32,739 nt of DNA from NCBI GenBank assembly GCA_015488325.1, contig WFOA01000055.1, forward strand, positions 1-32,739, written 5' to 3'. Shown here piece by piece: positions 5,106 through 14,096 of this stretch; position 1 is the stretch's first letter; each line of letters starts with the position of its first letter. The notes beneath the pieces were generated by a model that did no database searches, was not told the origin of the DNA, and saw only the letters and a list, made by a program, of their open reading frames with translations. Source of the DNA: Acidimicrobiia bacterium. GTDB lineage: Bacteria > Actinomycetota > Acidimicrobiia > Spongiisociales > ZC4RG35. Position numbers and translations under genes: made by a program.

Positions 5106-6014
5106 TCACCGTCGCTTCACGAACTCCGCCACCGCCCGGGCGATCGACTCCGGATGGGTCCAGGGAGCTTCGTGACGCGCATCGGCCAACTCGACCAGTT
5201 CTGCATCGGGCAGACGAGCCGCCAGGTCGTACTGCCAGGCGGCCGGAACGAGCTGATCCTGGACCGGCACGATCACCAGCGCCGGCACGTCGAGGCGTCC
5301 GATCCACGGTGTCGAATCGAAACGGAGAAGGGCGTACGACGAGACCGCCCCCGCTTCAGGGTCCCGCCGGTGGGTCTCCTCCCACAGCCAGCGGGCATGG
5401 TCGACGTCCACGGCGCCCGTCCACCGCAGGTACAGCGCCCGTGTCTCGGGGCTGCCGACGCCCGTCAGTCGCTCCCAGGCTCTGATCAGCCACGTCGCCA
5501 CCTGTCGAGCGCGGCGGACCCGCGGCGGATGGGTGGCGAAGGCACCGATCAGGACGAGTCGCCGCACCGCCCACCGATGGCGATGGGCGAGCTCCTGGGC
5601 GACGGCGCCTCCCATCGAATAGCCGACGACGGTGATGGGGCCGAGACCGAGGGCGGCGACGACACCCGCCAGGTCGTCGGCCAGGTCGGAGATGTCGAAA
5701 CGTTCGGTGGTCCGCGCCGACAGGCCGTGGTTCCGGTGGTCCACCAACACGACCCGATGGTCGTCGGCCAGCCGAGGCCCGACCCGGTACCACTCCCCGA
5801 TCGAGGATCCTCCGAGTCCGTGGACGAGCAGGACCGGTTCGGCGTCGGGTGGTCCCGCCTCTCGGACGAGGAACTCCCGGTCGCCGACGTACACGGTCCT
5901 CCCCGGAAGCCGCCACGGATGGGCCTGGGGCGGCCGGAACCGCGGGGTGAAGGCCGGGCCCAGGAGCCGCCACCCCACGGCGGCCGCCCCCACGACCTTC
6001 CAGAACCCCTTCAT
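5106..6014 (-). CDS. Alpha/beta-fold hydrolase
   Basis: This 302-residue protein is a member of the alpha/beta hydrolase superfamily; the substrate cannot be read from sequence. The order of motifs is LLVHGLGG (oxyanion-hole HG), DHRNHGLS, the nucleophile elbow GYSMGG, the acid in VPVQDQLVP and the histidine in [13 protein letters not shown]. The full Ser-Asp-His triad is therefore present. The hydrophobic N-terminus ([14 protein letters not shown]) may be a membrane anchor or signal. The ATG at 6014 overlaps the ferredoxin-like gene's stop (ATGA), showing translational coupling. It is the last gene of the minus-strand selD operon. A lipid- or ester-cleaving role is inference. Confidence 0.88.
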
Positions 6015-6436
6015 GGCGTCAACGGTCCACGGGCGAAGACGTGTTCTTCCACCGGGACCCCACCGAGGAGATGCTCGGTGATGATCCGCTCCATGACCGG
6101 AACCGTCACCGAGTGGTACCAGACACCCTCCGGGTAGACGAGGGCGATCGGGCCCTGTTCGCAGATGCGGAGACAGTCCACCTTGGTCCGAAGCACCCGC
6201 CCCCGTCCCGGGGGAACGGGCTCGGGGTCCGCCGAGGCGTCGCCCCGCCACGCCGGCGGCGGGGTGTCGAGGTCGAGCTCCTTCAGCCGTCGTTTCAGGT
6301 ACTTCCACACCGCCGTGGATTCCTCCCGGTCGGAGCAGCGGGGCGTCGACTGGTCGGCGCAGAGGAACAGGTGGCGTTCGACACCGCCCACCGAGAGGGC
6401 GTTGGCGATCGAGACCAACCGGGCGCGAGGTTCCAC
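6011..6436 (-). CDS. Thioredoxin-like [2Fe-2S] ferredoxin domain protein
   Basis: This 141-residue protein resembles the thioredoxin-like 2Fe-2S ferredoxin family. It has [12 protein letters not shown] near the N-terminus (two cysteines seven residues apart) and [12 protein letters not shown] later (cysteines three apart), which together give four cluster ligands. The tail [12 protein letters not shown] and the following helix also fit that family. An acidic and proline-rich insert separates the halves. The start chosen is the GTG at 6436; the ribosome site is weak and a downstream TTG could also serve. It lies 55 nt after selD and overlaps the hydrolase start. A role supplying electrons near selenium metabolism is suggested only by position. 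Confidence 0.85.
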
Positions 6437-6491: not shown

Positions 6492-7529
6492 TCAGACGAT
6501 GCGGATCGTCGCCTCCGCGCCGTCGACAAGCTCACCGACGACCGCCGCCCGAACACCGCCGTCGGAGAGGGCGGCCACGAGATCCGACAGCCGTTCGCGC
6601 GCCACGGCGATGAGCAGCCCCCCGCTCGTCTGGGCGTCGCAGAGGAGCCGGAGTGTCTCCTCGGCGACATCTCCGACGACGTGGGGACGGACCGATTCGA
6701 GGTTGCGGTCGCTCCCGCCCGGCCAGAAACCCTCGGAGAGGAGCTCCGCCACACCGTCGATCACCGGCACGGCCTCGGCCGCCACCACGGCCGACACCCC
6801 GGACGCGACGAGCATCTCCCGGAGGTGGCCGGCCAACCCGAACCCGGTGATGTCGGTGGCGGCATCGACCCCCACCTGCGTCATCGCCCTGGCCGCCCGG
6901 TCGTTGAGTGCCGCCATCGTCTCGACGGCCGCCCCGGCGACCTCGGGGGGGCATCTCCCGGCCTTGAGCGCGGTGGCGACGATGCCCATCCCCAGCGGCT
7001 TGGTGAGCACCAGACGGTCTCCGGGGCGACCCCCCGCATTCGTGACGAGGCGGTCGACCGTCTCCACCGTCCCGGTGACGGCGAAGCCGTACTTGGGTTC
7101 ACGGTCGTCGATCGAGTGACCGCCGACGATCACGCATCCGGCCTCCGCCATCACGTCGGCTCCGCCCCGCACGACCTCCTCCAACACCGAGAACGGGATC
7201 TCACCCCTCGGCCATCCGACGAGCTGTAGGGCGGTGAGGGGCTCGGCGCCCATGGCGTAGACGTCGGACAGGGCGTTGGCGGCGGCGATCCGGCCCCAGT
7301 CGTAGGGGTCGTCGACGATCGGCGTGAAGAAATCGACCGTCTGGACGAGGGCACGTCCGTCCGACAGGCGGTACACGCCTGCGTCGTCGCCAGGCCCCAC
7401 GATGACGTGGGGTGAGCGGGTCGCCGGATGGTCGTGCAGGGGGCGCAGGACCTGCGCCAGCTCGGAAGGCCCGAGCTTGCACGCTCAGCCGGCGCCGTGG
7501 CTGTAGCGGGTGAGACGGACGTCGGTCAC
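6492..7529 (-). CDS. selD: Selenide, water dikinase SelD, containing selenocysteine at an in-frame UGA
   Basis: SelD makes selenophosphate from selenide and ATP, the selenium donor for selenocysteine synthesis. Reading from the GTG at 7529 gives [14 protein letters not shown], then TGA (7487-7485), then [13 protein letters not shown]. The frame is then open to 6492. This matches the invariant SelD start HGAG-(C/U)-x-CK, so the TGA stands at the catalytic Cys/Sec (residue 15), with Lys18 three residues on. Later motifs are [22 protein letters not shown] and VGGHSIDD (ATP and metal binding), and [10 protein letters not shown] at the C-terminus. Total length of about 345 residues is normal. A SECIS-like hairpin follows the UGA. 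An alternative GTG at 7553 overlaps the upstream stop and would add eight residues. Confidence 0.93.
7459..7477 (-). promoter_or_regulatory. Bacterial SECIS-like hairpin in selD
   Basis: In the mRNA sense AGCUCGG-gccuu-CCGAGCU forms a perfect 7-bp stem with a five-base loop beginning with G. The stem starts seven bases after the UGA at 7487-7485, placing the loop about 17-21 bases from the U. That is the location expected for a bacterial selenocysteine insertion element bound by SelB. Confidence 0.75.
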
Positions 7530-7549
7530 GGCCCGCAACCTAGCGTCCG

Positions 7550-8065
7550 TCACCCGATGTCTTCGACGATGGTCGGGTGGCGGTCGTCGAAGACGACGAG
7601 CAGCGCCGCCCATACTTCGTCGCGGATCCCGCAGGGCTCGGCCTCCAACACCCAGTCCCGGAGGGGTATCAGCCGGCGGCCGTGGGCTTCGAAGCAGTCG
7701 CGGGACGGTGTCGACCGCACCCGGGGAACGATCCGGCCTACCGTCCCGTCGTCGCCGACGAGACGGTAGATCCCGTCCACCTTCCTGATCTCCAGCCGGA
7801 CCGCCCCGGCCTCCGCCACGAGGACACGCCGATCCGAGATGGTGGCCCAAACCTGCCCGACGGGGCCCACCAGCCGGTGGCGGCGTCGACGCCGGACCAA
7901 CCGAAGACGCTCCCCTGCCGGTGTGGACAGCTCGACGTCCCCCAACCGGCGTCCGTACACCACCGCCCGGTATTCACCCTCCGGCGAGACGACCACGGCC
8001 GTGTAGCGATATCCCACCTCGTCGCGCCGCTCCACCCGACGTTCGATCCTGAAGTGGACGGCCAC
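7550..8065 (-). CDS. Unrecognised 171-residue protein, first gene of selD operon
   Basis: I do not recognise a family. The GTG at 8065 is chosen because GAAGGGAG lies five bases upstream and the frame further upstream does not look protein-like. The sequence alternates short hydrophobic strands with charged turns (for example RYTAVVVSPEGEYRAVVYGR), suggesting a beta-rich fold. A basic run (RLVRRRRRHRLV) sits near the middle, and there are single cysteines in RDCFEAH and EPCGIRD. There is no signal peptide or membrane helix. Its stop is 20 nt before the selD start, so it is likely co-transcribed with selD. A TAGCCT -10 box is at 8107-8112. Confidence 0.7.
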   Translation of the reverse strand: MAVHFRIERRVERRDEVGYRYTAVVVSPEGEYRAVVYGRRLGDVELSTPAGERLRLVRRRRRHRLVGPVGQVWATISDRRVLVAEAGAVRLEIRKVDGIYRLVGDDGTVGRIVPRVRSTPSRDCFEAHGRRLIPLRDWVLEAEPCGIRDEVWAALLVVFDDRHPTIVEDIG

Positions 8066-8106
8066 GGGTCTCCCTTCACGGTCGCAGGACGTGTTCACCG
8101 CTGCCG

Positions 8107-8112
8107 AGGCTA
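8107..8112 (-). promoter_or_regulatory. -10 box TAGCCT of the selD operon
   Basis: The minus-strand TAGCCT is 41 nt upstream of the GTG at 8065, which has its own ribosome site. It lies back to back with the acyl-CoA dehydrogenase promoter at 8138-8143. Confidence 0.4.
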
Positions 8113-8137
8113 GGTGTTCCGACGCCGCCCCATGATC

Positions 8138-8143
8138 TACCCT
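8138..8143 (+). promoter_or_regulatory. -10 box TACCCT, leaderless
   Basis: TACCCT is exactly seven bases upstream of the GTG at 8151, and no Shine-Dalgarno sequence is present. Transcription would begin at or next to the start codon. Confidence 0.55.
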
Positions 8144-8150
8144 GACGACC

Positions 8151-9395
8151 GTGGAACTGTTCGACACCCCCGAACTGGCCGCGTTCCGGGCCGAGGCACG
8201 GGCCTGGTTGGAAGCTAACGTCCCACCCCTGGGCGAAGAGGAGTCCGGTGTCATCGGCCTGTTCGCCGAACATGAAGACGAGGAGGCGTTCCTCGCGAAG
8301 GCCCGACACTGGCAGGCCCGCCTCGCCGACGCCGGATGGGCCGGGATCACCTGGCCCACCGAATACGGAGGCAGGGGCCTCACCCCGGTCCATGAGATCG
8401 TCTGGCGCCAGGAAGCCGCCCATTTCGACCTGCCAGTCGGCGTGTTCGGGATCGGGATCGGGATGGGCGGCCCCACGATCATGGCGTGGGGCACCGAAGA
8501 GCAGAAAGCACGCTGGCTCCCGCCGATGCTGCGGGGCGAAGAGATCTGGTGCCAGCTCTTCAGCGAACCCGCCGCCGGGAGCGACGTCGCCGGCCTGCGT
8601 ACGAGAGCCGTCCGGGACGGCGACGAATACGTGGTGACCGGACAGAAGGTCTGGACGTCGGGTGCCCACTACTCGAAGTGGGGAATGCTCCTGGCCCGTA
8701 CCGACCCGAACGTGCCCAAACACGCCGGCCTCTCGTACTTCATCATCGACATGCGCCAACCCGGGGTGGAGGTGCGGCCTCTGCGGCAGATGACCGGCGG
8801 AGCCAACTTCAACGAGGTCTTCTTCGACGAAGCCCGGGTCCCCGCCGAGCACCTCCTCGGGGCCGAAGGCATGGGATGGTCGGTGGCCCTCACCACCCTC
8901 ATGCACGAACGGGTGGCGATCGGCGGCTACCTCGTCGGCGCCGCCGGGGTGTTCGACACCCTGCGTCGGATGTTCGACCGGGTCGCCGAGGAGCGGGGCG
9001 TCCACCCTCTGGTCGACCCGGTGGTCCGCGACCGCGCCACCGACCTCTACATCCGGGGTCAGGTGCTGCGGTTCATGACCCAACGCATCATCGCCAAGCT
9101 GGCGAAGGGGGAGATCCCGTCGGCCGAAGGAGCCGCCGCCAAGCTGGGGCTCACCTCCCTCCTCTCCCGGTTGGCCAACCTGGCGGTCGACGTCCAAGGT
9201 CCGGCGGGGATGCTCGGCCCCGAAGACGCCATCGACGACGGCAGGTGGGCCTTGGCGTTCCTCGGGTATCCGGGGATGCGGATCGCCGGAGGGACCGACC
9301 AGATCCTCCGCAACATCATCGGTGAACGGGTCCTGGGCCTGCCCGGTGAACCCCGGGTCGACAAGGACGTCCCCTTCAGCCGGATCCCCGGCTGA
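8151..9395 (+). CDS. Acyl-CoA dehydrogenase family flavoprotein
   Basis: This 414-residue protein has the normal length and domain order of FAD-dependent acyl-CoA dehydrogenases: an N-terminal helical domain, a beta domain around residues 134-230, and a C-terminal helical domain. FAD-binding signatures are LFSEPAAGSDVAG and GQKVWTSGAHY. The MCAD-type catalytic glutamate of the YEGT motif is absent; the equivalent segment reads AGGTDQILRNIIGERVLG. Glu253 in LMHERVAIGG is where isovaleryl- and long-chain acyl-CoA dehydrogenases carry their base, so it is the likely catalytic residue (inference). The gene appears leaderless. It stands alone, so the substrate cannot be inferred from context. Confidence 0.93.
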   Translation: MELFDTPELAAFRAEARAWLEANVPPLGEEESGVIGLFAEHEDEEAFLAKARHWQARLADAGWAGITWPTEYGGRGLTPVHEIVWRQEAAHFDLPVGVFGIGIGMGGPTIMAWGTEEQKARWLPPMLRGEEIWCQLFSEPAAGSDVAGLRTRAVRDGDEYVVTGQKVWTSGAHYSKWGMLLARTDPNVPKHAGLSYFIIDMRQPGVEVRPLRQMTGGANFNEVFFDEARVPAEHLLGAEGMGWSVALTTLMHERVAIGGYLVGAAGVFDTLRRMFDRVAEERGVHPLVDPVVRDRATDLYIRGQVLRFMTQRIIAKLAKGEIPSAEGAAAKLGLTSLLSRLANLAVDVQGPAGMLGPEDAIDDGRWALAFLGYPGMRIAGGTDQILRNIIGERVLGLPGEPRVDKDVPFSRIPG

Positions 9396-9420
9396 GCCGC
9401 CTCCACCCGACCAGGCTCAG
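9392..9420 (+). terminator. Inverted repeat after the acyl-CoA dehydrogenase
   Basis: CTGAGCC (9392-9398) pairs with GGCTCAG (9414-9420) across a 15-nt loop and overlaps the stop codon. No U-tract follows, so it is only a candidate terminator. Confidence 0.3.
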
Positions 9421-9445
9421 GGATGCGGCCCGACCGGCCGATGAG

Positions 9446-9451
9446 TACATT
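9446..9451 (+). promoter_or_regulatory. -10 box TACATT of the HAD gene
   Basis: TACATT lies 28 nt before the GTG at 9480. The predicted transcript would begin near 9458 and contain GGAGG at 9469-9473. This rules against the in-frame ATG at 9441 as the start. Confidence 0.45.
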
Positions 9452-9479
9452 GGAGCCCACACTTCCCCGGAGGTCGCCC

Positions 9480-10457
9480 GTGCCACGGCCGGTCTTTCCC
9501 CAGAACGTCATCGCCGTCATCTGGGACTTCGACAAGACCCTCATCCCCGGGTACATGCAGAAGCCCCTGTTCCGGCATTTCGACATCGACCCCGCCACCT
9601 TCTGGGAGGAGGTCGACCACCTCGAACAGTGGTACCGGAGCCGCGGCTCGGACCTGATCGCCACCGACACCCTCTACCTCAACCACATCCTCACCTATGT
9701 GCGGGCGGGGCGTATGGCCGGACTCAGCAACGAGCTGCTGCGCGAGCTGGGGGCCGAAATCGAGTTCTACGCCGGGATGCCGCACTTCATGGACATGCTG
9801 CGCAAGCACATCGAGGCGGAGCCACGCTTCGCCGACCATCAGGTCAGGGTCGAGCACTACATCGTGTCTTCGGGGTTACGCCAGATGATCCTCGGCTCGG
9901 CGGTGGCACCGTACGTCGAGTTCGTATGGGGATGCGAGTTCACCGAAGAGGTGGCGCCGCCCGGCTACCTGGAAGCGACCCAGCCTCGCCTCTTCACACC
10001 AGGCGAACGTCAGATCGAACAGCTCATCTACACGATCGACAACACGACGAAGACCCGGGCGATCTTCGAGATCAACAAGGGCACCAACAAGATCCCCCAC
10101 ATCGACGTGAACGCCAAGATCGCCCACGAAGACCGCCGAGTCCCGTTCCAGAACATGGTGTACGTCGCCGACGGGCCCTCCGACGTGCCGGTGTTCTCGA
10201 TCGTCAACCAGAACGGCGGCAAGACCTACGCCGTGTACCGGCCGGGTTCCGAAGCAGAGTTCCAGCAGGTGGATCGGCTCCTCCAGCAGGGCAGGATCCA
10301 GGCGTACGGTCCCGCCGACTACCGCGAAGGCTCCCAAACCGCCATGTGGATCACCCACGCCGTCGAACGGATCGCCGCCCGCATCGTGCGGGACCGTGAA
10401 CGAGCCCTGGCGGAGCGCCTCGGGCGTCCCCCCACCCACCTCGACGACGAGGACTGA
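9480..10457 (+). CDS. HAD-superfamily hydrolase (phosphatase-like)
   Basis: This 325-residue cytoplasmic protein belongs to the haloacid dehalogenase superfamily. Motif I is WDFDKTLIP, giving the nucleophilic Asp and the acid/base Asp. Motif II is HYIVSSGL. Motif IV is VYVADGPSDVPVFS, with Mg-binding aspartates. A large helical cap lies between motifs I and II. The layout is phosphoserine-phosphatase-like, but the protein is longer than SerB and the substrate is unknown. The GTG start is supported by GGAGG six bases upstream; the upstream ATG at 9441 is in frame but would lie before the predicted transcription start. The C-terminus is strongly charged. Confidence 0.88.
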   Translation: MPRPVFPQNVIAVIWDFDKTLIPGYMQKPLFRHFDIDPATFWEEVDHLEQWYRSRGSDLIATDTLYLNHILTYVRAGRMAGLSNELLRELGAEIEFYAGMPHFMDMLRKHIEAEPRFADHQVRVEHYIVSSGLRQMILGSAVAPYVEFVWGCEFTEEVAPPGYLEATQPRLFTPGERQIEQLIYTIDNTTKTRAIFEINKGTNKIPHIDVNAKIAHEDRRVPFQNMVYVADGPSDVPVFSIVNQNGGKTYAVYRPGSEAEFQQVDRLLQQGRIQAYGPADYREGSQTAMWITHAVERIAARIVRDRERALAERLGRPPTHLDDED

Positions 10458-13664: not shown

Positions 13665-14096
13665 ATGGACGCGACTCGTGCTCTCGAAGCGGCAAAGAAG
13701 CGCAGGCGGGAACTGGCCGAAGCCGCAGCCGAGGTGGAGGATGCGGCCGCCCGACCCAAGTCGAGCCCCGACTGGCCGGTCGCCGTAGCCGCCGCCTTGG
13801 CCGAGCTGGACGACGCGTTCCGTACCCACTGTGACGAGGTTGAAGCCGACGGGGGCCTCTTCGACGAGATCGTCGAAGAGGCCCCTCGACTGGAGGGCCA
13901 GATCTCCGAGCTGCGCCGCCGCCACGCCGAGATCGCCTGCGAGATCGAACGTGTGCGGACCCGATGCGGCAGGCTCGACCCCGACGACATCCGCACCCAG
14001 GTGGCTTCCGTGCTGGGGATGCTTTCGCGACATCGCCAGCAGGAGTCGGACCTCGTCTGGGAGGCCTACATGGTCGACATCGGCGGGTGGTCGTGA
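13665..14096 (+). CDS. Hemerythrin-like / helical protein (tentative)
   Basis: This 143-residue all-helical, highly charged protein has coiled-coil-like heptads at the start (RALEAAKKRRRELAEAAAEV). The arrangement of RTHCDEVE, RRRHAEIACEIE and SRHRQQESDLVWEAY, spaced along four helices and ending VDIGG, recalls actinobacterial hemerythrin-like proteins, where such His and Glu residues bind a di-iron or other metal centre. The match is partial, so this remains a suggestion. The start is the ATG at 13665, preceded by GGAG motifs. It ends four bases before the convergent universal stress gene, leaving no room for a separate terminator. Confidence 0.65.
   Translation: MDATRALEAAKKRRRELAEAAAEVEDAAARPKSSPDWPVAVAAALAELDDAFRTHCDEVEADGGLFDEIVEEAPRLEGQISELRRRHAEIACEIERVRTRCGRLDPDDIRTQVASVLGMLSRHRQQESDLVWEAYMVDIGGWS

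Follow-up and report, generated by a model that had tools for sequence, protein, structure and literature searches.

A selenocysteine-containing selenophosphate synthetase and its downstream RNA hairpins in an order of uncultured Actinomycetota

The selD gene of an Acidimicrobiia bacterium almost certainly encodes a selenophosphate synthetase that contains selenocysteine (Sec), with the UGA at codon 15 being recoded via SelB and a downstream hairpin, here termed H2. The gene was identified within a window of 32,739 nucleotides, i.e. the whole stretch of DNA analyzed. Sec-containing SelD is a known and common selenoprotein, Sec in SelD having long been recognized; the finding on the window SelD is correct and ordinary in kind, and its modest novelty lies in the RNA element. 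The less expected feature is a second conserved hairpin, H1, located between the UGA and the SelB-type hairpin.

The selD gene and its catalytic position

selD (selenide, water dikinase; 6492-7529, minus strand) has a GTG start and a predicted product of 345 residues with Sec at position 15. The terminal stop of the frame is a TGA (6492-6494), and its sole internal stop is the TGA at codon 15 (7485-7487, minus strand), which occupies the catalytic position in HGAG-U-ACK and is predicted to be read as Sec. The initial annotation described the frame read through this codon as a full SelD; our analyses of the minus strand frame from 7529 to 6492 bear this out. The product scores 401.9 bits against the curated equivalog TIGR00476 (cut-off 125) and 372.9 bits against NF002098 (cut-off 299), contains the Pfam domains AIRS and AIRS_C, and has as its closest solved structure PDB 3u0o (E=2.4e-87), the SelD of E. 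coli. HGAG-U-ACK aligns with HGAGCGCK of 3u0o, with Sec opposite the first Cys, and the window SelD has the Cys/Sec of the catalytic loop followed by xCK. The earlier placement of the catalytic residue in an HGAG-x-x-CK motif identified the correct Cys/Sec column, with the minor correction that Sec is the first x, i.e. HGAG-U-A-CK.

SelD of Aquifex aeolicus (PDB 2yye, 2zod and 2zau) is a natural selenoprotein, with which the window protein shares a Sec/Cys at the same position of the N-terminal loop and the full AIRS/AIRS_C fold, as well as the property of a selenoprotein serving its own synthesis. The window selD differs from genes for Sec-containing SelD/SPS proteins, such as that of Aquifex, in that the RNA downstream of its UGA has two hairpins.

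In one relative (G126) a stop codon lies just upstream of selD and a GTG is aligned with that of the window, observations that support the start at GTG 7529. A TANNNT -10-like element (TAGGTT, 7537-7542, minus strand) is located 7 nt before the start codon, and the window selD mRNA is probably leaderless, as judged from this sequence context. TANNNT is present 6-9 nt upstream of the start in 25 of 46 UGA-type loci, with many others having a strong Shine-Dalgarno sequence, which suggests that the mode of initiation has switched between families. A short 2Fe-2S ferredoxin-like ORF (6092-6436, minus strand; weak match to NF041612) starts 55 nt after the selD stop and is followed by an alpha/beta hydrolase gene.

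Two conserved hairpins downstream of the UGA

The consensus model for bacterial SECIS elements, as restated in PMC13188914, specifies a loop of 3-9 nt with G in the first two positions, a stem of 4-16 bp, a spacing of 16-37 nt and a minimum folding energy (MFE) of at most -7.5. H2 (GGCGCAG-GUC-CUGCGCC, 7442-7458, minus strand) lies within all of these ranges, with a 7-bp stem, a 3-nt loop (GUC) that begins with G, a position 33 nt after the UGA, near the upper limit for spacing, and an MFE of -11.3 kcal/mol (z -3.45).

The pairing of H2 is maintained by covariation and lost from the Cys homologues, as is characteristic of a bacterial SECIS. Of the H2 cells, 96% are paired across 38 distinct UGA genes, compared with 45% in 61 Cys genes and with 67% (sd 2.4%) on resampling of synonymous codons; six of the seven pairs are kept in only 2 of the 61 Cys genes. 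One H2 pair occurs as GC, CG, AU, UA and UG types among the UGA genes without a single mispair (37/37). The SECIS of E. coli fdhF has its apex about 18-19 nt after the UGA, and a bulged U. The GCAGGUC of the apex is nearly identical in the two elements, whereas the apex of H2 (GGUCC) is at 33 nt, is without the bulge and has H1 inserted before it.

H1 (AGCUCGG-GCCUU-CCGAGCU, 7459-7477, minus strand), which is conserved in UGA genes, is an addition to the standard single stem-loop of bacterial SECIS elements. Its fraction of paired cells, 0.90 compared with 0.73 (sd 0.019) under synonymous resampling, is beyond coding needs. At one H1 position pair, A15 is accompanied by U23 in all six cases, with only one U23 among the 31 sequences with G15 (Fisher p=3e-6, uncorrected for kinship). 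When H1 and H2 are considered as a two-helix structure in 37 gap-free UGA sequences, 94% of cells are paired, as against 30-42% when the structure is slid along the alignment, and the covariation exceeds that in all shuffles, although kinship inflates such shuffle tests. A covariance model of H1 plus H2 (R1), built from 37 sequences, scores UGA-type genes of the order at 57-78 bits, Cys-type genes at no more than 41 and all other matches at no more than 25; against its own genome it finds only the selD SECIS, with a plus strand match that is the mirror of the latter. Compared with shuffles of this GC-rich sequence, the 51-nt stretch as a whole does not stand out in folding energy (z -1.44); the case for a SECIS is therefore made by covariation, together with the loss of the structure from Cys genes.

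A different fold, in which GAGCNUGC, just after the U of the UGA, pairs with GCAGGUYC and carries H1 on top, is the minimum-energy fold in several relatives and would put the UGA at the base of the stem, where it also lies in E. coli fdhF. However, its outer stem lacks two-sided change in any of 8 pairs and has 81% of cells paired, whereas in H2 three pairs covary and 97% of cells are paired. Given that the outer stem does not covary, this fold was rejected and we consider it improbable. An outer stem closing a three-way junction round H1 and H2, present in the MFE fold of 63 nt, was likewise set aside, since by eye it is not kept in relatives.

The sequence evidence supports assignment of H2 as the bacterial SECIS of selD, with binding by SelB being predicted. 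The role of H1 is more tentative; it could be a folded spacer, a proposal to which we give somewhat less than even weight. In the same genome, the loops of the formate dehydrogenase (FdhA) and SelW-like genes lie 18 nt after the UGA, compared with 33 nt in selD. It is conceivable, again with rather less than even confidence, that two hairpins together form the selD SECIS, with H1 packing on H2 such that one SelB serves both 18-nt and 33-nt loops, perhaps with an efficiency of Sec insertion specific to selD. If functional, a two-hairpin SECIS would allow the rule that governs spacing in bacterial Sec insertion to be tested inside a single genome.

Conservation and exchange of Sec and Cys among relatives

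SelD is present in 123 of the 138 genomes of the order, with exactly one TGA in most and none in about a dozen. The nearest publicly named relatives are mostly metagenome-assembled genomes of Acidimicrobiia or other Actinomycetota. At the catalytic position, the codon in 110 SelD loci (that of the window and those of relatives) is TGA in 47, TGC in 49, TGT in 14 and never another, a distribution that excludes chance for the position of the UGA. The in-frame UGA is both aligned with Cys of homologues and kept among orthologues, as is typical of selenoproteins.

The proposal that selD is a pseudogene inactivated by the TGA, or that the TGA is a miscalled Cys codon, is consistent with the single base that separates TGA from TGC and with the draft nature of the assembly, but the conservation refutes it in practice: TGA recurs at these 47 loci in many independent assemblies, most SelD-bearing genomes of the order share it, which makes a sequencing error at 7485-7487 very unlikely, it is followed by 330 open codons with high GC3, and the SECIS is confined to UGA genes. 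We accord this proposal a negligible probability.

The initial annotation also predicted that a standard gene caller would truncate selD, and ORF calling with table 11 indeed yields only 302 residues from an internal GTG (7400), without the catalytic loop. The chance that this ORF, which is open, gives the real product, with the upstream part being incidental, is vanishingly small, as neither the catalytic Sec nor the CK motif is part of it and as the upstream 14 codons and the UGA are kept in relatives, with the start aligned. Across the order, a group of uncultured Actinomycetota, the SelD active site would be missed by gene callers.

A rapidly built tree of 106 SelD proteins requires 10 changes between Sec and Cys, at least 4 of which are forced by well-supported branches. 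The two residues have thus replaced each other repeatedly in SelD, with Sec clustering in this order and the SECIS decaying in Cys genes. Some Cys-type SelD genes (L065, a single locus; G043:C114; and G063:C2) retain scores of 36-41 bits against the SECIS model; they have probably changed from Sec to Cys recently, and their SECIS is probably decaying. Eight genomes with Cys-SelD (G113, G114, G119, G122-G125 and G134) retain SelA and Sec-containing FdhA, indicating that Sec decoding has been kept despite Cys-SelD. In one locus (L048; G020:C3:2359-3396) the SelD match contains one TGA and one TAG, reflecting frame damage, a misassembly or a match that runs on beyond the end.

Sec decoding and other selenoproteins of the genome

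The source genome (2.89 Mb in 162 contigs, 98% complete) has the machinery for making selenoproteins. As the initial annotation anticipated, selA, selB and tRNA-Sec are present elsewhere: selA is on contig C25 (TIGR00474, 436 bits), with selB directly downstream (TIGR00475, 341 bits), and tRNA-Sec is on contig C59 (anticodon TCA, i.e. UCA; Rfam tRNA-Sec, 75.7 bits; also found by ARAGORN). The further UGA-for-Cys genes that it predicted are likewise present, namely fdhA on contig C91, with one in-frame TGA at the Sec position (NNVDSCNRT-U-HAPSVAGL), and a SelW-like gene (L183; G000:C123:54395-54583), with an in-frame UGA in a CRTU motif, followed after 18 nt by a hairpin.

Decoding of the UGA as an amino acid other than Sec, by code reassignment or near-cognate read-through, has precedent in bacteria in which UGA is reassigned. 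Such decoding has scarcely any likelihood in this genome, where the selD frame itself terminates at a TGA, arguing that UGA is also a stop here and not simply reassigned, and where a SECIS is present along with selA, selB and a tRNA-Sec whose anticodon is UCA. No match to SelU, which is involved in selenouridine formation, was above cut-off in any of the 138 genomes, which leaves Sec as the most likely use of selenophosphate here.

By analogy with known selenoprotein biology, a ribosome reaching the UGA at selD codon 15 would encounter SelB, with Sec-tRNA-Sec and GTP, bound to the GGU apex of H2 downstream; H1 may serve as a folded spacer, or as a lower stem, and so bring H2 close to the mRNA entry of the ribosome. 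SelB would then deliver Sec at codon 15 in place of termination by release factor 2. The full SelD would convert selenide and ATP to selenophosphate, using Sec15 of its N-terminal loop, and SelA would use selenophosphate in making Sec-tRNA-Sec, which would supply SelD itself, formate dehydrogenase and the SelW-like protein.

The lineage is thus documented as Sec-decoding, with at least 3 selenoproteins, the selenoproteome of this genome being a lower bound. A custom scan for bacterial SECIS elements in the window and the selAB neighbourhoods gave no further convincing UGA gene; a window match at 14094, on the strand opposite to a uspA-like gene, was considered spurious. Another match of the scan is at L173:5144. 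Within the window ARAGORN found no tRNA and there was no match to Rfam families. A second SelD-like match (C123:35627) lies inside an ORF that, on reading its sequence, we judged to be PurL-like and not SelD. A literature search on Acidimicrobiia selenoproteins yielded nothing relevant, and the host's order is not named in the portions of the selenoproteome literature examined.

We considered whether SelD is the sole selenoprotein in four genomes that lack FdhA (G037, G042, G047 and G120), but this was refuted by the presence of SelW-like genes with one TGA. G111, and also the less complete G115 and G118, have Sec-SelD and SelA and no match to FdhA, SelW-like proteins or SelU; either they contain an unrecognised selenoprotein or SelD is its own only client.

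The Sec-containing formate dehydrogenase of the source genome is split (L142:5343-9819; G000:C91, minus strand). FdhA (7927-9819) contains Sec and lacks the Molybdop_Fe4S4 domain, which is instead at the C terminus of a separate protein of 289 residues (5343-6212) with Fer2_4/Fer4 domains; a NuoE-NuoF fusion is encoded between the two. This gene order is the same in all eight genomes checked, FdhA with about the same start point and one TGA is present in about 90 genomes of the order, and the split enzyme is order-wide. In 75 genomes of the order there is a SelW-like gene that contains exactly one TGA.
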